Assembly (NCBI RefSeq): GCF_900103805.1
Contig: NZ_FNIB01000013.1
Span: 1-64,000 of the forward strand
DNA from: Cryobacterium flavum
Lineage (GTDB): Bacteria > Actinomycetota > Actinomycetes > Actinomycetales > Microbacteriaceae
Direction: 5' to 3'
Length of the DNA: 64,000 nucleotides
The first letter of the stretch is position 1. Each line of letters begins with the position of its first letter. The notes under the pieces were generated by a model, which saw nothing but the letters and a program-made list of their open reading frames with translations, made no database searches and had not been told where the DNA came from. Shown one piece after another: positions 11,813-31,295 of this stretch. A program made the position numbers and the translations under genes.

Positions 11813-12442
11813 TCAAACGGTTAGGGGACACGGCCCAGGCCCGAGGGCAGCATTCTCTTGCGTGGCAGCGAGTTCTTCTACGAGCGTGAGGCCCTTCACT
11901 GCCCATTCAATTTCGAGGTCGGCGCGCGCAATGAGACCGTCGTAGACGTGTACCTTGTAGGCGACGATAGCGTCGTGCGCGTATTCTGGCTTCGCCGCGA
12001 GGCGCAGTCGCATCAGGTTGGTATCCCGGTTGCGCAATGCCTCGGAATGCTGCAGCCATCCGAGTCGCTTCGCCGCATAGTGATCGCGGTGTTCTCTGAA
12101 CTGACGTCGTGCCGTGTCAAATGACGCGTATTCCAGATACATCGCGTGTAGGTGAGCCACTGAGCGTTCCGCCGGTATTGCGAAGGGCTCTTCAGCCCAA
12201 CGGGCGAGCTCTTCTCGACCGCGATCGGTGATCGTGTACTCGCGCTTCGTAGCGTGTACGCCACGTTCGACGGCTGTCGCCACGATGAGGCCTTCGGTCT
12301 CCATGATGCGGAGTCCCGGATAAATCTGCGAGTGATTCGCTCGCCAGGCGTGTTCGATGGTGTCGCCGAAGATGCGCGCGAGGTCGTAGCCAGTCATCGG
12401 GCCAACGTCCAACAGGGCGAGCAGCGCGTGCCGCAGTGACAT
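11813..12442 (-). CDS. PadR-family transcriptional regulator
   Basis: A 209-residue PadR protein, subfamily with a C-terminal Vir_act_alpha_C-like dimerisation region. The winged helix covers residues 1-80: MSLRHALLALLDVGPMTGYD, then RANHSQIYPGLRIMETEGLI and a wing TKREYTITDRGREELARW. The C-terminal helices are EYASFDTARRQFREHRDHY and similar. It is divergent from the ABC/BVMO operon starting at 12584 and almost certainly represses it in response to an aromatic or related ligand. A palindrome in the shared intergenic region (12501-12526) is the probable operator. Confidence 0.9.
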   Translation of the reverse strand: MSLRHALLALLDVGPMTGYDLARIFGDTIEHAWRANHSQIYPGLRIMETEGLIVATAVERGVHATKREYTITDRGREELARWAEEPFAIPAERSVAHLHAMYLEYASFDTARRQFREHRDHYAAKRLGWLQHSEALRNRDTNLMRLRLAAKPEYAHDAIVAYKVHVYDGLIARADLEIEWAVKGLTLVEELAATQENAALGPGPCPLTV

Positions 12443-12500
12443 GGAACCCCTTCTATGTATTGAGAGAACTAACCCGAGTGTAACAGGCCATGTATGTAAT

Positions 12501-12526
12501 TATTTACCTAAATGTTGACGTAAATA
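12501..12526. promoter_or_regulatory. Probable PadR operator
   Basis: TATTTAC and GTAAATA form a perfect 7-bp inverted repeat separated by 12 bp, in an AT-rich patch between the divergent padR and ABC-permease genes. Spacing of about two helical turns centre to centre fits a dimeric winged-helix repressor. Confidence 0.6.
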
Positions 12527-12583
12527 CCAACAGGTAGTAACGTCGCTAAAAAGTTGTCCAACCAACGGTGGTGGGAGTCGTTC

Positions 12584-13414
12584 TTGAGTAACAACGTCGC
12601 AACGCGTCGGAGCTGGTTGTGGTTCCTTTGGACACCGCTCAACGCAGTTCAGAGAGCGTGGGCAGGCGTCGCGGGCGTTGTCGTTTTCCTCGTGTGTCTG
12701 CAGGTTTTGCCTCTTACGGGCGCCGTCGACCCAAAGCACACGCCGCCGCTGTCAGAGGTCATCTCAGCTCTCGTCAGCCGCCTAGCCACACCTCAATTTT
12801 GGGAAGCACTGCTTAACACGCTGACAACGTGGGGCATCGGCCTCGGCATTTCGGTAGCGATCGGTGTAGTGGCTGGATTGTTGATCGGTGGAATTCCGGT
12901 GGTGCGCGAGTTCACCGCGTCAACGATCGAGTTCCTGCGTCCGATCCCATCTGTCGCGTTCATCCCGCTTGCTGTGTTGCTCTACGGCACCGGGCGTGAT
13001 GCGACGCTGCTGCTCATCATTTACGCGGCTGTGTGGCAAATGCTTATTCAGGTCTCTTACGGGGCGCAAGACGTCGACCCTGTCGCCCGTGACACAGCCC
13101 GCAGTTACCGCTTCCCGAAGGGGTTCACGTTGATCAATGTCGTCGTGCCGACGGTGTTGCCCTACGCGGTCACAGGTTTCCGACTTTCAGCATCTGTTGC
13201 CCTCATTCTTGCCATTACCGGTGAGCTGATAATCGGCACCCCTGGGCTCGGCAAGTTGATCGTGATTGCGCAGGAGTCGGGTGCCGTCGCGAGCATGTAC
13301 GCACTTGTGCTCGTCACGGGTTTCTTGGGCCTCGCAGTGAACGTGATTGTTCGGATGATGGAGCGCCGGGTCCTGCACTGGCACGCCTCTGTGCGACGGG
13401 AGGGCATGAAATGA
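12584..13414 (+). CDS. ABC transporter permease (SsuC/TauC type), first subunit
   Basis: An integral membrane permease of the nitrate/sulfonate/taurine class. The frame begins at 12554, but I favour the TTG at 12584 (LSNNVATRRSW) because GGTGGGAG lies just upstream. One N-terminal helix (VAGVVVFLVCLQVLP) and about five core helices are visible, e.g. GIGLGISVAIGVVAGLLIGG. The EAA-type loop contains ARDTARSYRFPKGFTLINVV. Two adjacent permease genes suggest a heterodimeric channel with the ATPase at 14241 and the lipoprotein at 17778. Substrates of this class include organic anions and aromatic acids; here the BVMO context suggests a catabolic substrate. Confidence 0.85.
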   Translation: MSNNVATRRSWLWFLWTPLNAVQRAWAGVAGVVVFLVCLQVLPLTGAVDPKHTPPLSEVISALVSRLATPQFWEALLNTLTTWGIGLGISVAIGVVAGLLIGGIPVVREFTASTIEFLRPIPSVAFIPLAVLLYGTGRDATLLLIIYAAVWQMLIQVSYGAQDVDPVARDTARSYRFPKGFTLINVVVPTVLPYAVTGFRLSASVALILAITGELIIGTPGLGKLIVIAQESGAVASMYALVLVTGFLGLAVNVIVRMMERRVLHWHASVRREGMK

Positions 13415-14241
13415 GCGCCACTGAGTTGGTTCGTACGGCACGTATGAAGCGTGACTCCGGAATCGGCAAGCAGGTGCGAAAAGTGCTCGCCGTCGTCGCG
13501 TTGCCGATCGTATTGATCGTGACGTGGTGGTTTTCCTCTGCGGGTTCGCAGAACTTCTTCTTCCCCCCGCTCGAGCAGATTGTCACGGCGTTCCAGCCGA
13601 CCTGGTTCACGGGGGCCATTGAGACCGAGGTCTTGCCGTCTGTTTGGCGGCTGCTGGGGGGCTACCTCGTTGCCGGCGTGATCGGCATCGGGCTCGGAGC
13701 GCTACTCGGCAGTTCTCCGGTATTGCGGGCATTTACTGAGCCGGCGCTCGAGTTCTTGCGTGCGATTCCGCCGACGGTCATGATTCCGATCCTGATCCTG
13801 TTTCTCGGTATCGGCGCAGAGATGCGCGTCGTGGTCATCGCCATCGGTGCGCTCTGGCCGATCTTGCTGAACACTATCGAAGGTGTGCGCGCCATCGACG
13901 AGGTACTGCGGGACACCGCGCGTGTCTACCGACTAACTCCCATGATGCGCTTCAGCACACTGATCCTGCGCGGCGCGAGCCCGCAGATCGTTACGGGTGC
14001 TCGCCAGGGACTGTCGGTCGCGATCATCCTCATGGTCATCTCTGAGATGTTCGCCGCACAAGACGGCATCGGCTTCACGATCATTCGATTCCAGAAGAGT
14101 TACGCGATGCCCGAGATGTGGAGCGGCATTCTGCTACTCGGCGTTCTCGGCATCGTGCTGTCTCTCATCTTCAAGCTCTTCGAATCAATCTCACTGAAGT
14201 GGTACTTCGGACTTCGCCAGTCACAACGAGGAGGCAACTAA
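13411..14241 (+). CDS. ABC transporter permease (SsuC/TauC type), second subunit
   Basis: A 276-residue permease paralogous to its upstream neighbour: N-terminal helix VLAVVALPIVLIVTWWF, core helices such as GYLVAGVIGIGLGALLG, and the loop LRDTARVYRLTPMMRFSTLI. The FLRAIPPTVMIPILI segment matches FLRPIPSVAFIPLAV of the first subunit. Its ATG overlaps the first permease stop (ATGA, 13411-13414) and its own stop overlaps the ATPase start. The three are made together as one importer. Confidence 0.87.
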   Translation: MSATELVRTARMKRDSGIGKQVRKVLAVVALPIVLIVTWWFSSAGSQNFFFPPLEQIVTAFQPTWFTGAIETEVLPSVWRLLGGYLVAGVIGIGLGALLGSSPVLRAFTEPALEFLRAIPPTVMIPILILFLGIGAEMRVVVIAIGALWPILLNTIEGVRAIDEVLRDTARVYRLTPMMRFSTLILRGASPQIVTGARQGLSVAIILMVISEMFAAQDGIGFTIIRFQKSYAMPEMWSGILLLGVLGIVLSLIFKLFESISLKWYFGLRQSQRGGN

Positions 14242-15071
14242 TGACCATCAGCGATTCCGTAAGCGTCCAATCGCCAGACGTCCTGCTGCAAGTGAGGGGG
14301 CTCCGCAAGACCTACGAGGTCCGCAATGACCCCATCGAGGCGATCCGTAGGCTGACCTTCGACATTCACGCGGGTGACCTGGTCTGCATCGTAGGCCCGT
14401 CTGGTGCCGGGAAGACCACGCTGCTGCGTTCGTTGGCTGGCCTGCTGACACCCTCGGGCGGCAGTGCAAAGCTCGATGGTGAAGAGATCGTTGAGCCGCC
14501 GAAGGGCATGGCTGTGGTCTTTCAGGAATACGCTCGCTCGCTCTTTCCGTGGCTCACGATCGCGCAGAACGTTGCCCTGCCGCTGAAGGCTCAGGGGGTC
14601 GATCGTGCGACGCGCGCCGAGAAGACTGCAAAGGCACTTGAGGCCGTTGGCCTCGCTGACGTTGCGAAGCGCTACCCATGGCAGCTGTCTGGCGGTATGC
14701 AGCAGCGTGTGGCGCTTGCCCGTGCCGTGGCATACGAGCCGCGCATTCTGCTCATGGACGAGCCTTTCGCGGCCGTCGACGCACAGACACGCGCCGACCT
14801 CGAAGACCTGGTTCGTAACCTTTGGCACCGACTGGGCTTGACCGTGTTGTTCGTGACGCACGACATCGATGAGTCGATCTACCTGGGCCAGCGAGTGCTC
14901 GTCCTCTCGAACCGCCCCACCGAGATCCTTGACGATATCGCCATAAACCTTCCCGATGAGCGCGACCAGCTCACCACGAGAAACGAACCCGAGTTTGCCC
15001 GCCTTCGCGCTGAGGTCTATGAGCGAGTTCAGCAGGCGAAGGCCGGTCGTCGACCGGGCGACGCCGCCTAA
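14241..15071 (+). CDS. ABC transporter ATP-binding protein (SsuB/TauB type)
   Basis: A 276-residue ATPase that drives the importer. Walker A is GPSGAGKTTLLRSLAG, the Q-loop VVFQEYARSLFPW, signature LSGGMQQRVALARAVAYEP, Walker B RILLMDEPFAAVD and the H-loop VLFVTHDIDESIYL, all intact and in order. I use the ATG at 14241, preceded by GAGGAGGCAACT and overlapping the permease stop by one base; the longer frame upstream has no similarity. The QEYARSLFPW form is common in transporters for aromatic or pyrimidine-like substrates, but the ligand cannot be read from the ATPase. Confidence 0.92.
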   Translation: MTISDSVSVQSPDVLLQVRGLRKTYEVRNDPIEAIRRLTFDIHAGDLVCIVGPSGAGKTTLLRSLAGLLTPSGGSAKLDGEEIVEPPKGMAVVFQEYARSLFPWLTIAQNVALPLKAQGVDRATRAEKTAKALEAVGLADVAKRYPWQLSGGMQQRVALARAVAYEPRILLMDEPFAAVDAQTRADLEDLVRNLWHRLGLTVLFVTHDIDESIYLGQRVLVLSNRPTEILDDIAINLPDERDQLTTRNEPEFARLRAEVYERVQQAKAGRRPGDAA

Positions 15072-15103
15072 TGCCAGTACGCCTAAAGAGAAAGAAGGAC
15101 AAT

Positions 15104-16753
15104 GTGAATACATCCAGCAACGGTATTCTCGACGTTGCCATCATCGGCGCCGGACTCACCGGCATGTATGCGCTCCACAAGCTGCGCGAAGAAGGCCACG
15201 CGGTGCGCGTCTTCGACCGTGCTGATGGAGTTGGTGGCACGTGGTGGTGGAACCGGTATCCTGGCGCTCGCGTTGACTCGCCTGGCGCACCGTTCTACTG
15301 TTACACCTTTTCTGAAGACCTCGTGGCGGAGTGGGAGTGGCTCGAAACGCAGCCTGACCAGCCCGCTATCCTTTCGTATCTGAACCATGTCGCAGACCGC
15401 TTTGACCTTCGTCGCGACATTCAGTTGGCGACGAGTATTACGGATGCCGCATACGAGGAAGACTCCGGCCTGTGGGTCTTAGCCACGAGCAAAGGTGAAG
15501 AGGTTCGTGCTCGCTACCTCATCTCGGCCGTCGGCACGCTGTCTGACGCGTACAAGCCGGCCTTCGACGGGCTCGCCTCGTTCAGAGGAGAGGTCTATCA
15601 CACGGGCCATTGGCCGCAGGATCACGATGTGGACTTTACGGGCAAGCGTGTCGGTATCATCGGCACCGGCTCATCTGGGGTGCAGCTCATTCCGATCATC
15701 GCCGAGTCGGCAGCTGCTCTGACGGTCTTCCAGCGGACCCCGCAATACGTGCTTCCGGCGCGTAACCGCCCGCTGGCTGAAGAGCTGAAAACCCTTGCGA
15801 AAGAGAATTGGCCCGAGCTGCGCGAGCGAGCGGTTGCAACGGGTCGTCCACTGCCGAAGGCGCAGGAGTTGGCCGTCGAAGCATCTCAAGAAGAGCGAAA
15901 CGCGGTTTACGAACAAGCATGGCTCACCGGAGGCATGTCACTTCGCGACTGCTACGGCGACCACATGTCGGATCCCGAGGCGAACGAGCTTGTTGCCGAG
16001 TTCGTGCGCAAGAAGATTCGCGAGGCGATTACCGACCCTGATGTTGCAGAGCAGCTGCTGCCGTACTACATCTTCGGTGCGAAGCGTTTGATCCTAGGCA
16101 CGGGCTACTACGAGGCCTTCAATCGGGACAACGTCTCGATCGTTGACGTGAAGAAGGCACCGATCGTATGCATCACCGACAGTGGTGTCGAGACCTCCGA
16201 CGGGTTCTACGAGCTGGACGTATTGATTCTCGCGACTGGGTACGATGCGATCACCGGCGGGCTGACGAGCCTAAACCCTCGTGGTCGCGATGGCGTGCGA
16301 CTGCGTGACGTGTGGTCTAAGGGAGTGCAGAGCTACCTGGGGCTGGCGGTCAGCGGCTTCCCGAACATGTTCATCATGCACGGTCCGCAGACCCCGGCGG
16401 TGAAGTACCCGATGCATCTCGGTGCAGAACTCCAGGGCGACTGGATCGCGGGCATCATCAGGCATGCGAAAAACGGCGGTTTCGACACCGTCGAGGCGCA
16501 GGCTGCGATGCAACCCGCCTGGGGTAAAGAGGTCGCCGCAATCGCTGACCGTAGCCTGTACTCGAAGGCTGAGTCGTGGTACATGGGCTCAAACATTCCC
16601 GGCAAGCCGCGCCAGTTCATGGTGCATCTCGACGGTCCTGGCTACCATCGCCGCATTCATGAGGTGGCAGAAAGCGGGTATGAGGGCTTCGAGTTTTCGA
16701 AGGCCGATGTGGCTGCCGAGTCCGATGCTTACGCAGCGGCGGTGCTGTCATGA
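15104..16753 (+). CDS. Baeyer-Villiger monooxygenase (flavin-dependent)
   Basis: A class B flavoprotein of 549 residues that inserts oxygen beside a carbonyl, turning a ketone into an ester or lactone with NADPH. Two Rossmann motifs are visible: VAIIGAGLTGMYALHKLREE (FAD) and VGIIGTGSSGVQLIPII (NADPH). Between them is the type I BVMO fingerprint FRGEVYHTGHWP. An ATG opens the frame at 15071, but the GTG at 15104 with AGAAGGAC ahead fits better and begins just before the FAD fold. It resembles cyclohexanone- and cyclopentadecanone-type enzymes in length. It shares an operon with the importer, the decarboxylase-like gene and a hydrolase suited to opening its product. Confidence 0.88.
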   Translation: MNTSSNGILDVAIIGAGLTGMYALHKLREEGHAVRVFDRADGVGGTWWWNRYPGARVDSPGAPFYCYTFSEDLVAEWEWLETQPDQPAILSYLNHVADRFDLRRDIQLATSITDAAYEEDSGLWVLATSKGEEVRARYLISAVGTLSDAYKPAFDGLASFRGEVYHTGHWPQDHDVDFTGKRVGIIGTGSSGVQLIPIIAESAAALTVFQRTPQYVLPARNRPLAEELKTLAKENWPELRERAVATGRPLPKAQELAVEASQEERNAVYEQAWLTGGMSLRDCYGDHMSDPEANELVAEFVRKKIREAITDPDVAEQLLPYYIFGAKRLILGTGYYEAFNRDNVSIVDVKKAPIVCITDSGVETSDGFYELDVLILATGYDAITGGLTSLNPRGRDGVRLRDVWSKGVQSYLGLAVSGFPNMFIMHGPQTPAVKYPMHLGAELQGDWIAGIIRHAKNGGFDTVEAQAAMQPAWGKEVAAIADRSLYSKAESWYMGSNIPGKPRQFMVHLDGPGYHRRIHEVAESGYEGFEFSKADVAAESDAYAAAVLS

Positions 16754-17739
16754 GTTCTACCCTGTTGACGTTGGCCTGCGGACACTACGACCGCACCGAG
16801 GCGCTGCGCACGGGCGAGGTTTCGCCGCGCGGCATTAAACTGAACTACCTCACGAACCGTGTGGAAGAGACCTTCTATCGCATGGCACGCTACCGCGAGT
16901 TTGATGTCGCCGAAATGTCGCTGTCGACGTATGTTATGACGCTCTCTCAGGGGCGTCCTTTCGTGGCTATCCCGGTTTTTCCGTCGCGGATGTTCCGACA
17001 CAGCGGTATTTATGTGAACGTCAACTCGGGAATCAACGAACCGAAAGACCTTGCTGGCAAAATCATCGGTATCCCCGAGTGGCAGGTCACCGCAGCGGTG
17101 TGGATTCGCGGATTCCTCGAGGAAGAGTATGGCGTCAAGATCGCGGGTTCGACGTATCGCACCGGCGGTTTGCATGACGCGGGCCGCCAAGAGAAGATCG
17201 TGCCGAACATCCCTGACGGCGTTGAGACGATGCCGATTCCGAGCGATCGCACACTGTCAGAAATGCTCGTAAGCGGTGAGATCGACGCGCTCTACACGCC
17301 GCGAACTCCGATGCCATTCACTGAAGGGCACCCGAATGTCAGGCGCCTCTTCCCCGACTATCGCGCCGTCGAGGAGGACTACTACGGGCGCACCGGCATC
17401 TTCCCGATCATGCACGTCGTGGCCATCCGTCGCGAGGTGTACGAAAAGAATCGCTGGATCGCGCGCGAACTGTTCACCGCCTTCGAAGAGGCCAAGGCGG
17501 TGAGCGAGCGCTGGTACCAAGAGACTTCAGCGCTGCCCACGGTGCACCCGTGGCTCTTCGATGACATCACCAAGACCCGAGAGGTCATGGGCGACGATTA
17601 CTGGCGCTACGGATTGCACGACGATGACAAGACCCTGTCGACGTTCCTTCGTTACTCCCACGAGCAAGGCCTCGCAGACAAGCTCTGGGATGAATCCGAA
17701 CTCTTCGCTCCCGAAGCGATCGACGAAATCAAGATCTAA
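16750..17739 (+). CDS. 4,5-Dihydroxyphthalate decarboxylase-like protein (PBP fold, cytoplasmic)
   Basis: A 329-residue protein starting at an ATG that overlaps the BVMO stop (ATGA). It begins TLACGHYDRTEALRTGEVSP, has FYRMARYREFDVAEMSLSTY and GIPEWQVTAAVWIRGFL, and ends with LRYSHEQGLADKLWDESELF. This pattern is that of the 4,5-dihydroxyphthalate decarboxylase (Pht5-like) family, which shares the periplasmic-binding-protein fold. There is no signal peptide or lipobox, so it is not the transporter binding protein; that is the next gene. A ring-decarboxylase role is plausible, but many members are uncharacterised, so the substrate is unknown. Confidence 0.75.
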   Translation: MSSTLLTLACGHYDRTEALRTGEVSPRGIKLNYLTNRVEETFYRMARYREFDVAEMSLSTYVMTLSQGRPFVAIPVFPSRMFRHSGIYVNVNSGINEPKDLAGKIIGIPEWQVTAAVWIRGFLEEEYGVKIAGSTYRTGGLHDAGRQEKIVPNIPDGVETMPIPSDRTLSEMLVSGEIDALYTPRTPMPFTEGHPNVRRLFPDYRAVEEDYYGRTGIFPIMHVVAIRREVYEKNRWIARELFTAFEEAKAVSERWYQETSALPTVHPWLFDDITKTREVMGDDYWRYGLHDDDKTLSTFLRYSHEQGLADKLWDESELFAPEAIDEIKI

Positions 17740-17777
17740 CCGCCGTACACGATGGCGAACCAACCTCAAGGAGAAAA

Positions 17778-18779
17778 ATGATGAAACGTAAGCTCAGTGC
17801 AGCGCTTATCGTCGGACTTGCCAGCACCACGATGCTTGCTGGCTGCAGCGCAACCGCAACCGCGACCGGACCTTCCGCGGGTGGTGGCAGCTCCGCAAAG
17901 TGTGACGCCGAGAACGTCACTGTGGGCGTCGGGCCCTATGTCGACGTTGCGCCGCTCTATCTCGGCATCGAGAACGGCATCTTCGAACGGCACGGGCTCG
18001 CGGTTGAGGCCGAGATCATCTCTGGTGGTGGCGCCGCGCTGCTGCCTAGCGTGATTAACGGTGCTCTGACCTTCGCATACGGCAACGTCGGCTCGTTGCT
18101 GGTGGCCCGTGAGAAGACCCTTGATGTCGTGGTGGTGACGCACGGCAGTTCGTCGCCGGGCACCGGTTCTGAGCAGGGTGGTCTCTCGGTCGCTGAGGGT
18201 TCTGACATCAGGGATGCCTCGGACCTTGAAGGCAAGGTCGTTGCGGTCAACTCGGTCGAAAGCCTCACCGAGGTCATGGTACGTGACGCCGTAGCGCGGG
18301 ACGGCGGCGACCCCGATGCGGTCAAGGTCGTTGAGATGAAGCTCGGCGACATGCCGGCTGCGCTCTCGGCGGGCGAGGTCGACGCGATCGCAACCTTCGA
18401 GCCCTTCACCACGATCGGCAGGCAATCAGGTGCACGCCTGATCTCGCACTTGTTCGACGTCACTGATGACGGTGAGACGTTGATCGGTGCCTACTTCACC
18501 AGCGGTGCATACGCCGAGGAGTGTGCTGATGTAGCGGCCAAATTTGCCGCAGCTATGGGCGAATCCCTTGACTACGCAGAGGAAAACCCTGGCGAGGTGC
18601 GCACGATCACTGACACGTACCTTGAACTTGACCCGGCTGTTCGCGACGAGATGGCAATCCCGAAGTTCGGTTCGGAACTCGCCGAAGATGATGTGCAAGA
18701 CATCATCGACATGTCGCTGGAGTACGGCCTGATCAAAGACGAGGTTCCGATCGACGAACTGCTCTGGAAGGCGGAATAA
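17778..18779 (+). CDS. ABC transporter substrate-binding lipoprotein (NMT1/SsuA type)
   Basis: A 333-residue lipoprotein with signal peptide and lipobox LAGC (Cys23), then a low-complexity linker and the binding domain: VTVGVGPYVDVAPLYLGIEN, GLAVEAEIISGGGAALLP, GALTFAYGNVGSLLVARE, and GEVDAIATFEPFT. This is the nitrate/sulfonate/taurine or thiamine-precursor binding fold. AAGGAG sits just before the ATG. It supplies ligand to the permeases at 12584 and 13411. Its place after the enzymes, rather than beside the permeases, suggests the whole run 12584-19673 is one operon. Confidence 0.88.
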   Translation: MMKRKLSAALIVGLASTTMLAGCSATATATGPSAGGGSSAKCDAENVTVGVGPYVDVAPLYLGIENGIFERHGLAVEAEIISGGGAALLPSVINGALTFAYGNVGSLLVAREKTLDVVVVTHGSSSPGTGSEQGGLSVAEGSDIRDASDLEGKVVAVNSVESLTEVMVRDAVARDGGDPDAVKVVEMKLGDMPAALSAGEVDAIATFEPFTTIGRQSGARLISHLFDVTDDGETLIGAYFTSGAYAEECADVAAKFAAAMGESLDYAEENPGEVRTITDTYLELDPAVRDEMAIPKFGSELAEDDVQDIIDMSLEYGLIKDEVPIDELLWKAE

Positions 18780-18782
18780 TTC

Positions 18783-23661: not shown

Positions 23662-24437
23662 CTGAACAGATCTTCTCCCATCGAGCTACCCAAATAGGCG
23701 AGCTGCACCTCTTCAGACTTCGATACCGTCTCGGGGTCTCCCGATGCAATAATCCGCCCGGCGTCGAGCACGGAGATCGAGCTCGCCACCCGCATGACAA
23801 CGTCAATGTTGTGTTCGATGAGGATGAACGTAAGTTCATCCATTCCCGAAAGAAATTCCAGGAAATCTTCGATCTCACCCGGCGACATTCCCGCCGCGGG
23901 CTCGTCGAGGAGGAGAAGTTGCGGCTCAGTGGCATAGGCGAGGGCTATCTCCACCCGACGTCGCTGACCGTGCGCCAGGTCCCCCGCGAGGCGCAACGAC
24001 TCGGAATCGAGTCGGAGTCGCTCGATCACCTCGGCGACTCTTTGAGTGACATCGCGGTGCTTTCGCATGCTCGTGAACCAACTGCCGTTGTGCTCAAGCG
24101 TTCGCTGCACTGCCAAGACTAGATTGTCGTGTACTGACATGTCGTCGAGCAGACTGCTGTGCTGGAACGTCATCGCCATCCCACGGCGAACCCGCTCATG
24201 CGATGGCACCCTTGTGATGTCATTCCCGAGGAACCGGATCGTTCCCGAGGTCGGCACGAGGTGCCCATTTATGAGCTTAACGAGTGTGCTCTTGCCTGCC
24301 CCGTTCGGGCCGATGAGGGCGCGCCTCTCACCGCGACGTACGACGGTCGAAACATCGTCCGTTGCTTGCAAAGCGCCGAACGTTTTGGAGACATGGTCGA
24401 GTTCGAGTATGACCTCGGTTACGTTCGTTTCGGTCAT
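23658..24437 (-). CDS. livG: Branched-chain-type ABC transporter ATPase (LivG)
   Basis: A 259-residue ATPase. It has KTFGALQATDDVS, Walker A LIGPNGAGKSTLVKLING, the signature variant LAHGQRRRVEIALAYATEP, Walker B LLLLDEPAAGMSP and LIEHNIDVVMRVA. The signature with LAHG in place of LSGG is common in LivG proteins. Four-base overlaps with livM and livF indicate one transcript. The start at 24437 follows directly from the livM end. Confidence 0.88.
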   Translation of the reverse strand: MTETNVTEVILELDHVSKTFGALQATDDVSTVVRRGERRALIGPNGAGKSTLVKLINGHLVPTSGTIRFLGNDITRVPSHERVRRGMAMTFQHSSLLDDMSVHDNLVLAVQRTLEHNGSWFTSMRKHRDVTQRVAEVIERLRLDSESLRLAGDLAHGQRRRVEIALAYATEPQLLLLDEPAAGMSPGEIEDFLEFLSGMDELTFILIEHNIDVVMRVASSISVLDAGRIIASGDPETVSKSEEVQLAYLGSSMGEDLFR

Positions 24438-25435
24438 CGAGATACCACGCTTTCATCGGTTCCGAGTGGAGTCGCCCGCGGCTCTCGACGTTTCTTGAAC
24501 GGTGCCGCTATCCTCTCCACGATGCTTGCGACACCACCGGGGAGGAAATATATGACGAGGACCAAAATTAGGCCTAATCCGAGTTCCCAGCTATCAAAAC
24601 GTGATGACAGCTCGTCCCTTGCCACGACCAGAATTGCGGCCCCCGCAAGGGCGCCATGCAGCCGCTTTACGCCGCCGAGAATCACCATTACAAGCAGGAA
24701 CGCCGACGTCATGAATCCGAAGTTCTCGGGCGCGACAAAGCGGGCATTTTGCACGTTCAAGGCCCCCGCCACCGCCCCCACAACTCCGGCGACAGAATAC
24801 GCGACTCGCCGATAATGACTGACGTTGTAACCGAGGGCATCCATTCGCAGGGCGTTCGAATTGATGCCACTCAGCGCGTGCCCGAAGGGTGAGTCAACGA
24901 AACGTCGCACCATGATGTACACGACGACGACGACCGCGGCGATGTAATAGTACCGCGAGGGCACAGTAGAAAGTTCGATGCCGGGAAGGAGTACGGGGTT
25001 CCTGATGCCGGCAAGCCCGTCGGACCCTCCCGTAAGCCACCGGAGTGACTGGCTCAGGCTGAAGAGAAGCTCGGCAAACGCCAGGCTGAGCATGAGGAAC
25101 ACAATTCCAGTCGTGCGAACTGAAAGCCAACCGGCCGGAATTGCGAAGATTATGCCGACGACCGCGGCCACAAGGAGACCGAGAATCGCCGAATCTGTCG
25201 CATGGACCGAGAGGAGCCCCGCTGCGTAGCCTCCCAGTCCGTAGAACGCGGCGTGGCCGAGGGACGGCAAGCCAGTTACCCCGACGAGTACGCTGAGGCT
25301 AACTGCAGCGAGCCCGAGGATGAGAATCTCGGACAATAGGCTCAGCCGAAACGTGTTCAGCAGGAAGGGGGCGAGAGCCAACGCCACGATGATGACGATG
25401 CGGATGGCCCACCGTACATACATGTTGGGATTCAT
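24434..25435 (-). CDS. livM: Branched-chain-type ABC permease (LivM)
   Basis: A 333-residue permease with about nine to ten membrane helices. Characteristic segments are GVTGLPSLGHAAFYGLGGYA, the loop SPFGHALSGINSNALRMDAL and SVAGVVGAVAGAL, then FGFMTSAFLLVMVILGGVKR. These are standard for LivM. The C-terminal tail is cytoplasmic and basic (FKKRREPRATPL). It overlaps livH and livG by four bases each. Confidence 0.87.
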   Translation of the reverse strand: MNPNMYVRWAIRIVIIVALALAPFLLNTFRLSLLSEILILGLAAVSLSVLVGVTGLPSLGHAAFYGLGGYAAGLLSVHATDSAILGLLVAAVVGIIFAIPAGWLSVRTTGIVFLMLSLAFAELLFSLSQSLRWLTGGSDGLAGIRNPVLLPGIELSTVPSRYYYIAAVVVVVYIMVRRFVDSPFGHALSGINSNALRMDALGYNVSHYRRVAYSVAGVVGAVAGALNVQNARFVAPENFGFMTSAFLLVMVILGGVKRLHGALAGAAILVVARDELSSRFDSWELGLGLILVLVIYFLPGGVASIVERIAAPFKKRREPRATPLGTDESVVSR

Positions 25436-26289
25436 CGATTGACCTTTCCAAATAGGCCCGTTGGCTTCACAAGCAGAACCAGTGCCATGACGCCGAAGAC
25501 AAGGAATGAGGACAGCTCCGGCAGAAGAGCCACTCCGAGTGTCTGGATTTGCCCAATCAAAAGCGCGCCCACCAGAGCCCCTCGTAGCGAGCCGAGTCCT
25601 CCAACAACGACTACCACGAGAGCCAAGATGAGCATCTCGGTGTCCAGACCGGGGCGAACCCCGATTACCGGTGCACCGATTACTCCACCGATCGCCGCGA
25701 GTGCGGCCGCACCGGCAAAAACGCCGCCCATGATGAAAGAAATCCTGTAGCCGAGTGCAGCAACCATTTGCTTGTCTGCGACCGCGGCGCGCACGATAGC
25801 ACCGAGGCGAGTTCGCTCGACGACAACGAATATTACGAGCGCAATTGCCGCCGCAGCAACGATGACAAAGAGTCGATAGACGGGATACTGCATACCTAGA
25901 ACCCCGACGGAGCCTCGCAGAATCTCAGGCGGCGCGGGAAGATAGACGTCGTTCCCCCAAAAGTGCTTGGCAACGTCTGCAAAGATGAACGCGATGCCCA
26001 GCGTGAGTAGTCCCTGGTCCAGGTGTCCTCTGTTCATAACTGGTTTGACAGCGAAGTACAATACCGCGCCGAAGGCAGCCCCCGCGATTAGTGCGACCGG
26101 TAGAGCAGCGGCCAGACCCGCTCCGCTGGCCAGCATCACTGCAATGTAGCCACCGAGCAGTAAGAGCGAACCATGGGCAAGGTTAAGCACACTCATGAGG
26201 CCGAACACAAGGGAGAGTCCCGCCGCCATAGTGAATAGCAACAGTCCTCGTCCCAGCCCATTTAGGAACGTGAAGAGGATCTCGATCAT
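25432..26289 (-). CDS. livH: Branched-chain-type ABC permease (LivH)
   Basis: A 285-residue permease. It starts ILFTFLNGLGRGLLLFTMAA and has SLVFGLMSVLNLAHGSLLLL, the loop TRLGAIVRAAVADKQMVAAL and GGLGSLRGALVGALLIGQIQ, all typical of LivH. The frame is open to 26349, but the ATG at 26289 with AAAGG ahead is the natural start and matches the family N-terminus. A 60-bp gap separates it from the binding-protein gene upstream. Confidence 0.87.
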   Translation of the reverse strand: MIEILFTFLNGLGRGLLLFTMAAGLSLVFGLMSVLNLAHGSLLLLGGYIAVMLASGAGLAAALPVALIAGAAFGAVLYFAVKPVMNRGHLDQGLLTLGIAFIFADVAKHFWGNDVYLPAPPEILRGSVGVLGMQYPVYRLFVIVAAAAIALVIFVVVERTRLGAIVRAAVADKQMVAALGYRISFIMGGVFAGAAALAAIGGVIGAPVIGVRPGLDTEMLILALVVVVVGGLGSLRGALVGALLIGQIQTLGVALLPELSSFLVFGVMALVLLVKPTGLFGKVNR

Positions 26290-26349
26290 TGTTAGCCTTT
26301 CAAGGCAGGTCCTGAGGTGGAGCGCACGTCGCCCCACCCGAGATTTCAA

Positions 26350-27564
26350 CTACGGCTGCTCGCCAAACTCACCGAGGTCGCCGACGATGACTGGCGCAAG
26401 CTCTCCGTCCAGGTTCTCGATCCGGGCAAGGTACATCGTTTGCACCGTGCCGTGAGTCTCCTTGTCAATCAGAAGGCGACCACGGGGGCTGTCGATCTCA
26501 GTGCCCTCCATCGCGGCTGCAAGCGCAGCTCCGTCGCTGGTGTCGCCCGCGAGCTCCTGAACCGCTTGCGCGATCAGTTGTGCCGCGTCGTAGGAGAAGA
26601 GCGAAAAGTATGACGGTGCGCGATCGGTCTTCTGCCTGTAGTCCGTGACGAAGGCGGCATTGATCTCATTGTCGAGCGTCCATGCGTAAGGAAGCACACT
26701 GTAGGCGCCCTCGGCCGACTCTCCCTGAGCGGAGAGCACGTCAGGCGTCGTGAGCGAACCTGGTCCGATTAGGGGGATCTGGTTTTTGTACCCGAACTCG
26801 TCGTACTGCTTCACGAAGTTGACTGCCTCGCCTCCCGCGAAGAAAGCATAGGTGGCTTCGGCACCCGACGAGCCGATCTGGCTGATGTAGGGCTGGTAGT
26901 CTTGGGTCTTCTGAAACGGTGGAAATGCCTCACCAGCGATGCTTCCGCCCGCGTCGATATATCCCTCTCTTACACCGTCGACGAGTTCATGTCCGGCGGC
27001 ATAGTCCGATGCAGTGAGAAAGAGCGGGACCCCGTTAAGTTCTTCATGGATCCATTCGCCGACCGGGTAGCTCAGCTGATGACTCGACTGCGCCGTGCGA
27101 AACACGAAGTCTGAGCGCGCATCGCCTGTCACCGCGTTGGCCACAGCGTTCGAGACGACGAGAGGGACTTCCGCCGCCTCAAAGGCACCAGCAACTTGAA
27201 GCGCGACAGCGGAGCTCACGATGCCCGAGCCGAAATCAACCTCATCCTCTTGAAGGAGCTTGTTCGCCTTGCGAAGCCCGGTCTCCGGCGTCGCCTCAGT
27301 GTCCTCGATGATGAGAACGACCTCTCGGCCGCCCATCTTGTTGTCGTTCTGCTCCAAATAAAGCTCAAATCCAGCGATCATGTCGTCTGAGATCGGAGCA
27401 TAGACACCGGACGTGGGCAGGAGCAGACCGATCTTGATAGGGCCTTCGCTATCGCTGGTCGCGCCACCTCCGAGAGCACCACCTGAACATGCGGCTGTCA
27501 GCAGAACGGTCGCTGCCGCTGCGGAAGCGAACACTGCTCTAGACATCTTTGTCTTGATTTTCAT
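26350..27564 (-). CDS. ABC transporter substrate-binding lipoprotein (LivK-like)
   Basis: A 404-residue lipoprotein with a signal peptide and lipobox TAAC (Cys26). The type I periplasmic-binding fold follows: IKIGLLLPTSGVYAPISDDM, GGREVVLIIEDTEATPETGL, then VPLVVSNAVANAV. It delivers the ligand to LivH/LivM. The ligand pocket cannot be read by eye; members of this family in aromatic-degradation clusters bind benzoate-like acids. GAGGAAAAT lies just ahead of the ATG. The 61-bp gap upstream to the SDR gene has a TGCAGC-TGG-GCTGCA dyad at 27577-27591 that could be a processing or attenuation stem. Confidence 0.88.
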   Translation of the reverse strand: MKIKTKMSRAVFASAAAATVLLTAACSGGALGGGATSDSEGPIKIGLLLPTSGVYAPISDDMIAGFELYLEQNDNKMGGREVVLIIEDTEATPETGLRKANKLLQEDEVDFGSGIVSSAVALQVAGAFEAAEVPLVVSNAVANAVTGDARSDFVFRTAQSSHQLSYPVGEWIHEELNGVPLFLTASDYAAGHELVDGVREGYIDAGGSIAGEAFPPFQKTQDYQPYISQIGSSGAEATYAFFAGGEAVNFVKQYDEFGYKNQIPLIGPGSLTTPDVLSAQGESAEGAYSVLPYAWTLDNEINAAFVTDYRQKTDRAPSYFSLFSYDAAQLIAQAVQELAGDTSDGAALAAAMEGTEIDSPRGRLLIDKETHGTVQTMYLARIENLDGELAPVIVGDLGEFGEQP

Positions 27565-27625: not shown

Positions 27626-28405
27626 TCAGGCGAAAACCTGCCCCCCGTCAACGACGAGTACCTGGCCCGTGACAAAACTCGAGGCGGATGAGGCAAGCCA
27701 CTGCACAGCACCCACCAGGTCTTCGGGAATGAGCTCACCCGGGATCGACCGCGCCGAGACTGCGCGGGCTATGTAGCTTTCGTCGTTGTGAAACCGAGTC
27801 GCCTCGTCGCTTATGAGCCCAGGCGACACCGCGTTCACTCGGATGCGATCTACTCCGAACTCACGAGCTGCCGCGCGTGTCAATGCTTCGACGGCACCCT
27901 TCGAAGCGACATAATGCGGAAATCCCGTGATGCCCAAGCGTGCCGTGGTCGACGCGAAGTTGATGATTGATCCACCCCCACGCACCACCATGGCCCGTGT
28001 TACGGCGGCTGTTGCTTGCCAGACACCGCGCACGTTTACCTTCATCACCCGATCGAATTCATCGGGATCGACATCCGCCCAAGCGCTTCGCCCGGAGAGC
28101 GTTCGGTAAATCGCTGCATTGTTGACGAGAATGTCGACACCACCAAAGTCTCGCTCGGCCATCGCGACAGCTGCCGTCATGCTCACGGAATCCGTCACGT
28201 CGCCCGCGAAGAAGCGGATGTGCCCTTTTGCGGAGTTGTTCACCTTCTCTGCGAGGCTCTGTCCCTGCCCCTCGAGTGCCGGAAGATCGATCGCAACGAC
28301 GTCGGCACCGAGGTCCGCGAAGGAGCGGGCCAGGACCGCGCCGATTCCTGCAGCGGCACCGGTGACCACGACGACGCTGTCACTCAGTTCTCTTTCTGCG
28401 CTCAT
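27626..28405 (-). CDS. Short-chain dehydrogenase/reductase (SDR)
   Basis: A 259-residue classical SDR: VVVVTGAAAGIGAVLARSFA, acidic AIDLPALE after the second strand (NAD-type), LVNNAAIYRT, the catalytic serine in IINFASTTARLG, YVASKGAVEALTRAAA with Tyr and Lys, and VVDGGQVFA at the end. It starts two bases after the BVMO stop, so it is co-translated with it. The pairing suggests that it makes the ketone which the BVMO oxidises, as in cyclohexanol and 1-phenylethanol pathways; that role is inferred from position. Confidence 0.87.
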   Translation of the reverse strand: MSAERELSDSVVVVTGAAAGIGAVLARSFADLGADVVAIDLPALEGQGQSLAEKVNNSAKGHIRFFAGDVTDSVSMTAAVAMAERDFGGVDILVNNAAIYRTLSGRSAWADVDPDEFDRVMKVNVRGVWQATAAVTRAMVVRGGGSIINFASTTARLGITGFPHYVASKGAVEALTRAAAREFGVDRIRVNAVSPGLISDEATRFHNDESYIARAVSARSIPGELIPEDLVGAVQWLASSASSFVTGQVLVVDGGQVFA

Positions 28406-28407
28406 GC

Positions 28408-30348
28408 TTATGCCTCTCGCTCAACTCGAAGGGGAACGCTGTCGTACGCTTCACGATCGACGGAGCTCGTTGCGCTCCAGTAATCGATGAGAGGGAACGG
28501 CCAGTTCTGCGAGACGCGACCGAATTTGTTCTTATACCAGCTGCTAACTTCTGACGCGCCCCATGCCATGAGTCCGTTGCCCTCGTCAATCTGCCGGTTG
28601 TATGCGTCGTAGATATCCTGTCTGCAGTCGATAGCGGCCTCATCGCGACGCAGAAGCCCGCTGATGGCGTCGAGGACGTAATTCACCGCCAGTTCCGAGA
28701 AGAGCACGATGCTGCCATTGACGACGAGGTTTGTGTTGGGACCATAAAGGCAGAACAGATTAGGAAATCCTGGGATTGATATGCCGAGATACGCCCGAGC
28801 GTCATCCGCCCAGTACTCATGGAGATCACGCCCTGCAACCCCGGTCACCGACACAGAAGACAAGAAGTCCGACGCGGTGAATCCTGTGCCATAGATGATG
28901 ACATCCACTTCGTGCTCGACGCCATCAGCGGTACGAATACCGTGCTCGTAGAATTCGGCAATCGCCTCAGTTTCAAGGGCTACGTTCGGACGCTTCAACG
29001 TGCGTGCCCAAGTACCGTCATCACGTAGCAGCCTCTTGGCTCCCGGCGGGTAGGTCGGGATCACCTTGGTGAGTAGATCTGGGCGTTCCGCGAACTGCTC
29101 CTCGAGGTATGAGGTCAGGTTCTTACGCATGTGCTCGTTCTGCGCTGAGACTGATCCCGCCTTACTCCACTCGGGATCGACAGTGACGAATCGACGGCGA
29201 CCCTCCACCGCCGTCCAGAACTGGAAGAACCGGAACCACCGTGCATAGAACGGAATCACGTCGAATAGCCATGACAACTCGAGGGGAATGGCCTCCAGGT
29301 AGTTCGGCGTCGGATACATCCACGGCGCATTTCTCTGAAAGACCGTGAGGTGATCGACTTCGGATGCGATCGCCGGTATCACTTGAAATGCACTCGCGCC
29401 AGCACCGATGACAGCGACGCGCTTACCTTTCAGGTCGACGTCATGACGCCATGCCGCAGTATGCCATGCCTCCCCTGTGAACTTGTTCGCCCCAACAAAG
29501 TCTGGAATCATGGGGTTATTGAGCTGTCCGACGGCACTTATGACCGCATTAAAGTACTCCAGTACCTCTCCATCAGCGGTCCGGTAGCGAAGAGCCCAGA
29601 GGGAGTCAGTCGCCCGGTATGCGGCCGAAAGGACCGTCGTCTCAAAGCGAATTGAATCGAGCAGCCCCTTCTTTTCAGCGACGCTACTGAAGTATCCGAA
29701 GATATCGTCGCGCTGCGAGTAGTGGTAAGGCCAATCGCGCTTCTGGGCGAAAGAGTAGCTGTAGGCGAAGTTATGCGTGTCAAGTCGGCAGCCAGGGTAG
29801 CTGTTTTCGTACCACGTGCCCCCCACTGAGGGGTTCTTCTCGAACACGACAAAGTCCACGCCGGCCTGTTTCAGTCGGAAAGCGGCGGCGACGCCGGACA
29901 TGCCCGCGCCGATTACTGCAACCCTAAATTGTCGACCCGGTGCGAGCTCAGCAAGGTTCCAATCGGGATCGCTCACACCCTCAGGGATGTTCAGTTCATG
30001 AGACAGGAGCGGTAAGTATGTGTCGTCTGCTTCTGCAGCGATGAAACTCATCAGACGCTGCAGCAATTCTTGGTCCGGCTCGGCTGCGACTGAAAACCCA
30101 TTGTCGCGGTAGCGTCGAAGCGCACAGAATGAGATCTCACGCGCTTTCAGCTGCTGCTCAGCTGTCATTCCGCCTTGAGGAGGGATCGCACCAGCTGATG
30201 GAACTATGTCCGGACGAAGCGCCGGGTCAATGAGGCTGGTATCTCCTGTGAGCTGACAAAGAGCTACTAGCAGAGAAGGGAGTTCGGCCTGTTCGAGGGC
30301 ACGAAGCAGCGCGTCGTCGGACCACGGATTTGTACTCTGAGGTGTCAC
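28408..30348 (-). CDS. Baeyer-Villiger monooxygenase, HAPMO-like with N-terminal extension
   Basis: A 646-residue class B flavoprotein. A helical N-terminal extension of about 140 residues precedes the FAD motif VAVIGAGMSGVAAAFRLKQA; the NADPH motif is VAVIGAGASAFQVIPAI. This architecture and length match 4-hydroxyacetophenone monooxygenase, which makes 4-hydroxyphenyl acetate. The fingerprint reads FTGEAWHTAAWRHD: the position after Trp, normally Pro or Asp, is Arg. I start at the GTG at 30348, with GAGGG about 9 nt ahead; the longer frame to 30549 would run across the operator and into the divergent iclR. First gene of the nine-gene unit. An aryl ketone is a plausible substrate. Confidence 0.87.
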   Translation of the reverse strand: MTPQSTNPWSDDALLRALEQAELPSLLVALCQLTGDTSLIDPALRPDIVPSAGAIPPQGGMTAEQQLKAREISFCALRRYRDNGFSVAAEPDQELLQRLMSFIAAEADDTYLPLLSHELNIPEGVSDPDWNLAELAPGRQFRVAVIGAGMSGVAAAFRLKQAGVDFVVFEKNPSVGGTWYENSYPGCRLDTHNFAYSYSFAQKRDWPYHYSQRDDIFGYFSSVAEKKGLLDSIRFETTVLSAAYRATDSLWALRYRTADGEVLEYFNAVISAVGQLNNPMIPDFVGANKFTGEAWHTAAWRHDVDLKGKRVAVIGAGASAFQVIPAIASEVDHLTVFQRNAPWMYPTPNYLEAIPLELSWLFDVIPFYARWFRFFQFWTAVEGRRRFVTVDPEWSKAGSVSAQNEHMRKNLTSYLEEQFAERPDLLTKVIPTYPPGAKRLLRDDGTWARTLKRPNVALETEAIAEFYEHGIRTADGVEHEVDVIIYGTGFTASDFLSSVSVTGVAGRDLHEYWADDARAYLGISIPGFPNLFCLYGPNTNLVVNGSIVLFSELAVNYVLDAISGLLRRDEAAIDCRQDIYDAYNRQIDEGNGLMAWGASEVSSWYKNKFGRVSQNWPFPLIDYWSATSSVDREAYDSVPLRVEREA

Positions 30349-30431
30349 TTCTTTAGATCCCTCTTTCGTCTTCGGGCCTCGTTGCCTTCGATGTCTCGAC
30401 GATAGATGCGGTGGACTGAGGTGCCTAATGG

Positions 30432-30448
30432 ATTCTGTCGACCAGAAT
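30432..30448. promoter_or_regulatory. Probable IclR operator between BVMO and iclR
   Basis: ATTCTG-TCGAC-CAGAAT is a perfect 6-bp inverted repeat with a 5-bp spacer. It sits in the 140-bp gap between the divergent BVMO and iclR genes. It matches the sites at 9162-9178 and 9982-10000 in sequence and geometry. Confidence 0.75.
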
Positions 30449-30488
30449 TGCTGAGAATTACCTAGATATTGGAGATTAGGATTCGGAT

Positions 30489-31295
30489 ATGTATGCGGAT
30501 CCAGACCGACAGCCACCAACTTATGCAGTGGCCTCTGTTGACACTTCACTCCGTCTCCTAGAGATGCTCCGCGATGGGGGAAGCCTCCGGCTTAAAGATG
30601 CAGCGGCTGAAGTTGGAGTCGCTGCTTCGACAGCGCACCGTCTATTTGCGATGCTCATTTACCATGGGTTTGCGATGCAAGACGAGAACCGTTTGTATTG
30701 GCCGGGGCCTTCGCTCGGTGCCGTTGCCGCAGGTATAACGTGGACAAATCAAGTGCGCGATGCTGTCGAACCCCACCTAGAAACGCTCGTTAGGCGCACC
30801 GGTGAGACTGCCAACCTCATGATCCGCGTTGGCGCAAACGTCCGTATTATCATGACTGTCGAGAGTTCAAACGTTCTTCGAGTCACCGATAGGCGTGGCG
30901 TGGTCTTGCCCGCGCGCCATGCCTCAGGGGGGAAAGCGCTTTTCGCCGAGCTTTCACTTGTTGCGCTCAAGCGTCTGTATCTCAGTAGTATGGCCGAAGT
31001 CTCCGGCGACGCGCTTGACCCTATCGAATTCGGCGAGTTTTTGCGTGAACTTGACCAGTGCAGGCTCAAAGGTTATGCATCGAATACTGGTGCGACCGAA
31101 GAGGGGGTCGGAGCTATTGGTGTAACACTTCACGATGCCGAGGGCAACGCTTTCTCGGCGATTTCCCTAGCCACCCCACTGCGAAAATTACGAGGACTCA
31201 TCCAGCAGGGAACCGTAAGAGAGATAATGTCAGCGCGCTCTGCGATCGAGGCTGACCTGACAAGTGCCGGTTTCACGCATCCTAGTTCCACATAA
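30489..31295 (+). CDS. IclR-family regulator of the BVMO/Liv unit
   Basis: A 268-residue IclR protein. The helix-turn-helix is RLKDAAAEVGVAASTAHRLF and the effector domain has TGETANLMIRVGANVRIIM and LPARHASGGKALFAELSL. It is a clear paralogue of the regulator at 9194-9991 with a matching recognition helix. It faces the nine-gene catabolic unit across an ATTCTG-N5-CAGAAT palindrome. I infer autoregulation and control of that unit, with possible crosstalk to the gentisate genes. The ligand is not known. Confidence 0.9.
   Translation: MYADPDRQPPTYAVASVDTSLRLLEMLRDGGSLRLKDAAAEVGVAASTAHRLFAMLIYHGFAMQDENRLYWPGPSLGAVAAGITWTNQVRDAVEPHLETLVRRTGETANLMIRVGANVRIIMTVESSNVLRVTDRRGVVLPARHASGGKALFAELSLVALKRLYLSSMAEVSGDALDPIEFGEFLRELDQCRLKGYASNTGATEEGVGAIGVTLHDAEGNAFSAISLATPLRKLRGLIQQGTVREIMSARSAIEADLTSAGFTHPSST

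Follow-up and report, generated by a model that had tools for sequence, protein, structure and literature searches.

What do two Baeyer-Villiger monooxygenase (BVMO) operons, each with its own ATP-binding cassette (ABC) importer, do beside the gentisate genes of Cryobacterium flavum? We addressed this question in the first 64,000 nucleotides of contig NZ_FNIB01000013.1 (assembly GCF_900103805.1), the whole of which is called the window. One of the two operons, module 2, probably belongs to a gentisate regulon, because a rare palindrome, TTCTG-N5-CAGAA, is common to the region preceding the gentisate 1,2-dioxygenase (GDO) operon, the start of the IclR1 regulator gene and the divergent region between BVMO2 and the IclR2 regulator gene. 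In the reading that we favor, module 2 and the 3-hydroxybenzoate/gentisate genes would form one regulon, the other operon, module 1, would be a parallel feeder, and both would deliver 3-hydroxybenzoate; judged from the sequences, this reading stands slightly on the probable side. Co-regulation of module 2 and its feeding into the gentisate pathway appear fairly probable and are firmer than the exact acyl-benzoate/acyl-phthalate chemistry, which is doubtful.

Genes of the two modules and of the gentisate set

Module 1 (plus strand, 12554-19673) consists of two permease genes, an ATPase gene, BVMO1, a decarboxylase-like gene, a binding-protein gene and the hydrolase gene hyd1, in this order. Module 2 (minus strand, 30348-21270) consists of BVMO2, the short-chain dehydrogenase (SDR) gene SDR2, LivJ, LivH, LivM, LivG, LivF, SDR1 and hyd2. 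Intergenic gaps range from −4 to +38 bases in module 1 and from −4 to +61 bases in module 2, and this tight spacing argues for one transcript per module, so that both are likely co-transcribed units. A regulator gene diverges from each of them, PadR opposite module 1 and IclR2 opposite module 2.

11813-12442, minus strand: PadR-type regulator of module 1 (Pfam PadR, 7.9e-16)
12554-13414, plus strand: module 1 importer permease 1, Ssu/Tau/Nit class (Pfam BPD_transp_1)
13411-14241, plus strand: module 1 importer permease 2 (BPD_transp_1; Ssu/nitrate/taurine-type models below their own cut-offs)
14241-15071, plus strand: module 1 importer ATPase (ABC_tran); the ATG at 14241, in a TAATG overlap, is the probable start instead of 14118
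15071-16753, plus strand: BVMO1, phenylacetone/steroid monooxygenase-like (PDB 4ap3, 1.7e-159; 1w4x, 1.3e-155; both BVMO fingerprints)
16750-17739, plus strand: 4,5-dihydroxyphthalate decarboxylase-like (Pht5-like) protein (PDB 9jp7; tree)
17778-18779, plus strand: module 1 binding protein, NMT1/SsuA-type (Pfam NMT1, 2.5e-23; lipoprotein-like N-terminus, judged by eye)
18783-19673, plus strand: hyd1, alpha/beta hydrolase (nucleophile motif GNSYGG)
21270-22154, minus strand: hyd2, alpha/beta hydrolase (nucleophile motif GNSFGG)
22151-22960, minus strand: SDR1 (Pfam adh_short_C2, 2.8e-48; YxxxK motif)
22957-23661, minus strand: LivF-type ATPase (ABC_tran)
23658-24437, minus strand: LivG-type ATPase (ABC_tran, BCA_ABC_TP_C)
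24434-25435, minus strand: LivM-type permease (BPD_transp_2)
25432-26349, minus strand: LivH-type permease (BPD_transp_2)
26350-27564, minus strand: LivJ-type binding protein (Peripla_BP_6, 1.4e-79; PDB 4zpj, 4ey3, 4evq; lipoprotein-like N-terminus, judged by eye)
27626-28405, minus strand: SDR2 (Pfam adh_short_C2, 9.5e-56)
28408-30348, minus strand: BVMO2, a long BVMO with an N-terminal extension (homology, alignment, fingerprints); the GTG at 30348 (646 aa), near the start of its relatives, is the probable start instead of 30549
30489-31295, plus strand: IclR2 regulator (Pfam IclR_C, 9.4e-21)

The original prediction described two operons, each pairing a BVMO with a related hydrolase and a full ABC importer of a different class, one of them with two SDRs. 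Pfam and PDB matches confirmed all of these genes, with both SDRs (adh_short_C2) in module 2, and gene content upheld the BVMO-hydrolase-importer logic in both operons. The paired proteins share 45.7% identity (hyd1 vs hyd2), 32.8% (BVMO1 vs BVMO2) and 50.2% (IclR1 vs IclR2).

The genes adjoining module 1, taken together, make up what by homology is a complete 3-hydroxybenzoate/gentisate set, with a 3-hydroxybenzoate 6-hydroxylase, GDO, maleylpyruvate isomerase (MPI) and fumarylpyruvate hydrolase (FPH):

6430-7173, minus strand: mycothiol-dependent MPI (Pfam MDMPI_N, 1.5e-25)
7173-8009, minus strand: FPH of the FAH family, with the substrate assigned from the cluster (Pfam FAA_hydrolase, 3e-64)
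8006-9085, minus strand: GDO, a cupin (PDB 3nst, named gentisate 1,2-dioxygenase, 6.5e-183)
9194-9991, minus strand: IclR1 regulator (Pfam IclR_C, 6.5e-26)
10293-11546, plus strand: 3-hydroxybenzoate 6-hydroxylase-like FAD monooxygenase (PDB 4bjy, deposited as 'probable salicylate monooxygenase', 6.5e-131)

We take 4bjy to be the 3-hydroxybenzoate 6-hydroxylase of Rhodococcus jostii, and 3nst is presumably a broad salicylate/gentisate dioxygenase.

About 140 residues precede the first Rossmann/FAD motif of BVMO2 and also of the four relatives aligned with it, an extension that we take to resemble the layout of 4-hydroxyacetophenone monooxygenase (HAPMO); no HAPMO reference sequence was among the PDB matches of BVMO2. 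The structures closest to BVMO1 are steroid and phenylacetone monooxygenases. The first type I BVMO fingerprint is intact in both proteins (features from PMC4498894), and BVMO1 has the second one, FxGxxxHxxxW[P/D], as well (FRGEVYHTGHWP); BVMO2 appears BVMO-like by its overall homology.

The two hydrolases group with those adjoining BVMO2 relatives in Rhodoglobus and Streptomyces in a clade of four (support 96/97), the order within which is unsure; hyd1 and the L107 protein form long branches in this tree. G104-x-S106-x-G108, D230 and H257 are invariant in all eight aligned hydrolases, and S106/D230/H257 is the likely catalytic triad of hyd1 and hyd2 as serine hydrolases. Only 5 of 296 sampled genomes of the phylum, the organism's own included, gave a hyd2 match at 1e-30 (33-36% identity in the other four), and the hydrolase family is therefore rare in the phylum.

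The gene that had been called decarboxylase-like could be placed, by homology, in the 4,5-dihydroxyphthalate decarboxylase family, of which Pht5 is presumably the established member name. Its product matches the solved enzyme 9jp7 over its full length (residues 4-325, 1.1e-73), with no Pfam or NCBIfam match. In a tree whose rows were picked by the family motif, with two rows dropped, it groups with L043 (99/96), a homologue that Microbacterium sediminis encodes in a Rieske-dioxygenase cluster, and weakly (80/60) with L044 and L193; the Sphingobium homologue in the weak group adjoins a Gfo/Idh/MocA oxidoreductase gene and a Rieske gene.

A palindrome common to module 2 and the gentisate genes

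The palindrome was discovered by comparing the intergenic regions of the GDO and BVMO2/IclR2 promoters, in which 3 of 16 positions were mismatched, compared with 4 in the best of 20 shuffles. A pattern search located three exact copies in the window:

9163-9177, no strand assigned: TTCTG-N5-CAGAA preceding the GDO operon, a putative operator for IclR
9984-9998, no strand assigned: TTCTG-N5-CAGAA overlapping the annotated IclR1 start
30433-30447, no strand assigned: TTCTG-N5-CAGAA in the BVMO2/IclR2 divergent region

Only 0.01 copies were expected in the window, and none of 100 shuffles reached 3. The whole genome (4,040,838 bases) holds 4 copies of the exact pattern and none of the reversed control pattern; the fourth copy lies within a reading frame judged from its sequence to be an FAD oxidoreductase. 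Five of 200 other loci carried it, four of these being copies of the window itself and the fifth a site within a permease gene of a Microbacterium plasmid. This genome-wide rarity is a stronger control than the third site.

When extended, two of the palindromes read ATTCT-N7-AGAAT and one TTTCT-N7-AGAAT. GenR, the regulator of the 3-hydroxybenzoate/gentisate genes of Corynebacterium glutamicum, is listed with the site ATTCC-N7(5)-GGAAT (PMC8222616, Table 1), which shares the 5-N7-5 layout and differs at one position per arm, with outer bases ATTCC/GGAAT in place of ATTCT/AGAAT. In a comparison of eight IclR proteins, IclR1 pairs with IclR2 as its sister (96/93), IclRa of Rhodococcus antarcticus being next (99/99), and the helix-turn-helix segments of IclR1 and IclR2 are highly alike.

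A relaxed motif, TTCT-N7-AGAA, gave 14 matches in the window and 90 comparison loci (1,633,706 bases in total), vs 6.6 expected in mononucleotide shuffles. The window and related catabolic loci account for nine of them: three in the window, two in R. antarcticus (one preceding the importer-BVMO2 operon, the other between the divergent GDO and IclR genes), two in the Blastococcus locus L112 (around IclR and an importer-GDO-FAH-BVMO2 operon), one in the same-genus locus L191 (before GDO) and one in L105 (between two importer genes). In the same-genus genome to which L191 belongs (G416), a Ssu-type importer lies near a gentisate cluster (L194 6222-9551, L191 5321-10658) and no BVMO match was found in these stretches; L191 also carries a perfect ATTCC-N7-GGAAT palindrome at about 6688.

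Recurrence of the parts and the island setting

To compare gene neighborhoods, species genomes were scanned with an alignment of five BVMO2-type proteins, and the best 80 of 189 relatives were combined with four plasmid loci, giving 84 BVMO2 loci, many of them on truncated contigs. Gene starts taken from our own gene calls are rough. Parts of the block recurred in several combinations. The Rhodoglobus locus L100 has BVMO2-LivJ-LivH-LivM-LivG-LivF-hyd2 in the same order without the SDRs (BVMO2 at 62% identity, the rest at 53-65%); four alphaproteobacterial loci from Bradyrhizobium relatives (L115, L116, L122, L166) have SDR1-SDR2-hydrolase-BVMO2; and nine Burkholderiales loci, mostly from Comamonadaceae, join BVMO2 to Liv-type importer genes, with an SDR1 match in six of the nine. 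The R. antarcticus plasmid carries MPI-FPH-GDO-IclR with a Ssu-type importer and BVMO2, the Blastococcus loci L112 and L114 carry importer-GDO-FAH-BVMO2, with a hydrolase-like gene preceding BVMO2 in L112, and in L160 a module-1-like importer (56/59/64%) adjoins a BVMO2 relative, a 31% hydrolase and an FAH gene. BVMO2 relatives are accompanied by a module-1-class importer and FAH-family genes in L112, L114, L105, L160 and the R. antarcticus plasmid, and additionally with a GDO-type cupin in L112, L114 and R. antarcticus. This pairing of the module 1 importer class with the module 2 BVMO class at 5 of 84 loci ties the modules in kind.

Within 5 kb of BVMO2, 12 of the 84 loci have a hyd-family hydrolase, in every case on the BVMO2 strand; beyond 5 kb, none has one. 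Counts near (within 5 kb) vs far from BVMO2 were 10 vs 1 for Liv permeases, 7 vs 2 for FAH genes and 4 vs 2 for Ssu permeases, the last amounting to little or no enrichment per base. Among 396 sampled genomes of the phylum, the organism's own included, 11 gave Pht5-like, 27 BVMO2 and 24 BVMO1 matches.

Other neighborhoods stand apart from these patterns. In R. rhodochrous GD02, the acetovanillone-study strain, the plasmid locus L040 (NZ_CP083975.1) encodes a BVMO2 relative (50%) whose neighbors include an alpha/beta hydrolase gene, a 3-(3-hydroxyphenyl)propionate hydroxylase gene and genes of a CoA pathway. A Microbispora BVMO2 relative (L101, 60%) has as neighbors an extradiol-dioxygenase-like gene and two FAD-monooxygenase-like genes, these three judged from sequence, as well as an FAH-family gene, which suggests another ring-cleavage partner for a BVMO2 relative. 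At least 17 of the best 80 BVMO2 loci bear Chloroflexi, Dehalococcoidia or Tepidiforma titles, and none of these has a hyd-family or importer-permease match.

Several observations weigh against one regulon fed by both modules. Since the GDO and BVMO2/IclR2 sites define the palindrome, only the site at the IclR1 start is independent, and allowing one mismatch brought no extra palindrome in the window, though 1.26 were expected by chance. Five of the 14 relaxed matches (L108, L111, L127, L140, L177) have no visible link to the system. In L114, the other Blastococcus locus, the relaxed motif appears only with one mismatch, and the stretches tested in L100 and L160 gave no exact form. The promoter regions of modules 1 and 2 match each other as well as those that yielded the palindrome (3 of 16 mismatched) through the 14-base, non-palindromic TTACCTANATNTTG, which occurs at 12504-12517 and 30458-30471 and nowhere else in the genome; it is defined by both of its sites, with no independent third, and is therefore a lead only. 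The TTCTG palindrome is absent at module 1, whose promoter carries another palindrome. The suggestion that the nearby gentisate genes could clear a hydroxyaromatic product gained support for module 2 from the shared palindrome and from BVMO2 relatives beside gentisate-type genes in a few other genomes. Module 1, with no such palindrome and with a PadR gene to itself, may be a separate acquisition.

To the same side belong the second fingerprint of BVMO2, in which R takes the place of the final P/D (FTGEAWHTAAWR; the residue is D in 36 of the 84 relatives, P in 15, R in 15, N in 12 and another in 4, and the motif is absent in 2), and the identity of only 29% between the R. antarcticus FAD monooxygenase and the window's 3-hydroxybenzoate 6-hydroxylase-like protein. 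Little or no enrichment per base near BVMO2 was observed for Ssu-type ATPases (10 vs 7), SDRs (23 vs 17) and IclR genes (4 vs 3), GDO relatives were rare at BVMO2 loci (2 near, 1 far), and 70 of the 84 loci, including L112 and L114 with importers farther off, had no importer permease within 5 kb. Twelve phylum regions around the top BVMO1, BVMO2 and Pht5 matches (four each, some ended by the contig) contained no module; one had a 28% hydrolase match about 8 kb from a Pht5 homologue and another a 34% SDR match adjoining a BVMO1 relative. No second instance of the double block was found among these regions and the 84 BVMO2 loci. The double arrangement is therefore not supported as a conserved system: its parts recur (Rhodoglobus, Blastococcus, R. 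antarcticus) and recombine, and the whole block appears nowhere else among the loci examined.

The setting of the block looks like a genomic island that accumulated parts. Its right end is probably marked by an integrase abutting a tRNA gene and by a step in G+C content, which is 0.57-0.62 per 4-kb window up to 36 kb and 0.64-0.69 rightward:

33595-34770, plus strand: tyrosine integrase (Phage_integrase, 9.3e-22) abutting tRNA-Phe at 34781-34856

The contig begins at base 1 of the window, so the left end lies outside it, and the first 36 kb contained no repeat of 40 or more bases that could mark an attachment site. A transposase cluster (24-5925; IS110 twice, rve/HTH types) occupies the contig start. 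Between the modules, 19769-21191 is likely a seam: it holds an IS481-type helix-turn-helix gene, a minus-strand DUF4913 fragment and a stretch that weakly matches ISL3-type transposases. The insertion sequences of the island match plasmids from several actinobacterial genera. The best BVMO2 match outside the organism's own genome reached 39% identity (59 relatives), and GDO was present in 3 of 57 genomes of the genus, its own included; the modules were thus not supported as genus-wide, and the island content is therefore accessory.

Such a setting, with its integrase, tRNA-Phe and several transposase genes, the transposase and DUF4913 fragment between the modules, a block not conserved elsewhere and the separate PadR gene of module 1, would also be expected if independent catabolic operons had simply accreted, with the gentisate genes serving only 3-hydroxybenzoate and the BVMO modules acting on unrelated ketones, such as alicyclic or aliphatic ones. 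The rare palindrome and sister IclR genes common to module 2 and the gentisate genes speak against this, as do the BVMO2 relatives found with gentisate-type genes in other genera, and we regard it as unlikely.

A proposed route to 3-hydroxybenzoate and its alternatives

For the favored reading, in which both modules feed the gentisate genes, we infer the co-regulation, all substrates, and each reaction and its order as follows. IclR1 and IclR2, sister regulators resembling GenR, would control module 2 and the 3-hydroxybenzoate/gentisate genes. The Liv-type importer would take up an aromatic substrate, an SDR of module 2 would produce the ketone, BVMO2 would insert oxygen to give an ester, and hyd2 would split it, releasing a hydroxyaromatic acid, 3-hydroxybenzoate or a close relative. 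The 3-hydroxybenzoate 6-hydroxylase-like enzyme would form gentisate, GDO would cleave the ring, and maleylpyruvate would pass through fumarylpyruvate to fumarate and pyruvate.

Module 1, under its own PadR gene, would import a phthalate-type keto acid through the Ssu-type importer, BVMO1 and hyd1 would together exchange the acyl group for a hydroxyl, and the Pht5-like protein would remove one carboxylate, converting 4-hydroxyphthalate to 3-hydroxybenzoate and joining the same lower pathway. Because the 3-hydroxybenzoate hydroxylase-like gene lies next to module 1, this scheme would run without a gap from acylphthalate through acyloxyphthalate, 4-hydroxyphthalate, 3-hydroxybenzoate and gentisate to fumarate and pyruvate. 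A phthalate-type substrate is suggested by the 4,5-dihydroxyphthalate-decarboxylase-like gene in the operon. Decarboxylation of 4-hydroxyphthalate gives 3-hydroxybenzoate. Among the plasmid matches listed, the two best relatives of the module 1 ATPase (63%; A. crystallopoietes and P. aurescens) adjoin genes for ring-hydroxylating dioxygenase alpha/beta subunits, a PdxA-type protein and a reductase, and in a genome of the same order a 48% Pht5 homologue lies together with Ssu-type importer genes and with neighbors judged from sequence to be ring dioxygenase, class II aldolase and protocatechuate 4,5-cleavage (lig-type) genes. The 4,5-dihydroxyphthalate decarboxylase of Comamonas testosteroni also accepts 4-hydroxyphthalate, as described in a review (PMC13040137). 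The phthalate pathways covered there resemble module 1 in that a decarboxylase of this family shares its operon with an ABC importer; unlike them, the scanned block genes include no ring dioxygenase and have a BVMO and a hydrolase instead.

The presence of two SDRs in one operon would be accounted for if the BVMO placed oxygen on the alkyl side of hydroxyphenyl ketones, giving esters of 3-hydroxybenzoate or gentisate from which the hydrolase would free acid and alcohol, with the second SDR oxidizing the alcohol; either acid would then be released directly into the pathway that shares the palindrome. This route leaves the decarboxylase-like gene of module 1 unexplained, assigning it to another step, and the product proposed for acetophenone oxidation by AcpA is phenyl acetate, with aryl-side oxygen (PMC9618137). 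Nothing in the sequence decides the regiochemistry, and we consider the alkyl-side route quite improbable.

The layout of the Pseudomonas fluorescens ACB 4-hydroxyacetophenone pathway, a long BVMO with an N-terminal extension and an esterase, is also seen here; that pathway ends in hydroquinone cleavage, not gentisate. By analogy, the design proposed here would work like the known BVMO-esterase ketone routes, AcpA/AcpB and SAPMO. AcpA/AcpB of Rhodococcus rhodochrous GD02 likewise pair a phenylacetone-monooxygenase-like BVMO with an esterase, converting ketone to ester to phenol and acid, but entry proceeds via phenol, catechol and beta-ketoadipate genes, with no importer named with acpAB in the sections available (PMC9618137), whereas here ABC importers lie within the operons and gentisate genes adjoin. 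SAPMO and 4-sulfophenyl acetate hydrolase of Comamonas testosteroni KF-1 are likewise encoded by adjoining genes, in a block framed by insertion sequences that acts on a charged aryl ketone; that route yields 4-sulfophenol, with no gentisate link described in the sections available (PMC3746432), in contrast to the gentisate genes adjoining here.

With BVMO-esterase pairs known and BVMO1 being phenylacetone-monooxygenase-like, the modules could instead follow classical 4-hydroxyacetophenone- or acetophenone-type routes, yielding hydroquinone or phenol for cleavage by enzymes elsewhere in the genome. Neither a hydroquinone dioxygenase nor a phenol hydroxylase was named among the scanned window proteins (6.4-31.3 kb), the remaining genome not having been searched for either, and we hold such routes to be very improbable.

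As to the favored link with gentisate catabolism, the GenR system of C. glutamicum also joins an IclR gene to GDO, fumarylpyruvate hydrolase and maleylpyruvate isomerase genes under a palindromic 5-N7-5 operator; unlike it, the present locus includes two sister IclR genes and carries the palindrome at a BVMO-SDR-importer-hydrolase operon as well (PMC8222616, Table 1; PMC13118786). No BVMO-gentisate link was found in the literature searched, subscription literature being largely outside the search. What is new with respect to the known routes, as far as this literature goes, would be the wiring to a GenR-type gentisate regulon and the importers inside the operons.

Tentatively, then, 3-acylbenzoates through module 2 and 4-acylphthalates through module 1 may be funneled into 3-hydroxybenzoate and a GenR-type gentisate regulon that absorbed a BVMO operon, from a kit of parts reshuffled among actinobacteria, Bradyrhizobium relatives and Comamonadaceae. 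If true, this funnel would be a previously undescribed catabolic route for carboxylated aryl ketones with dedicated ABC import. Little is known of the physiological substrates of BVMOs (PMC4498894), and a control site common to a known lower pathway would offer a handle on the natural role of one BVMO group, predicting inducers, intermediates and end product that are testable in one strain.

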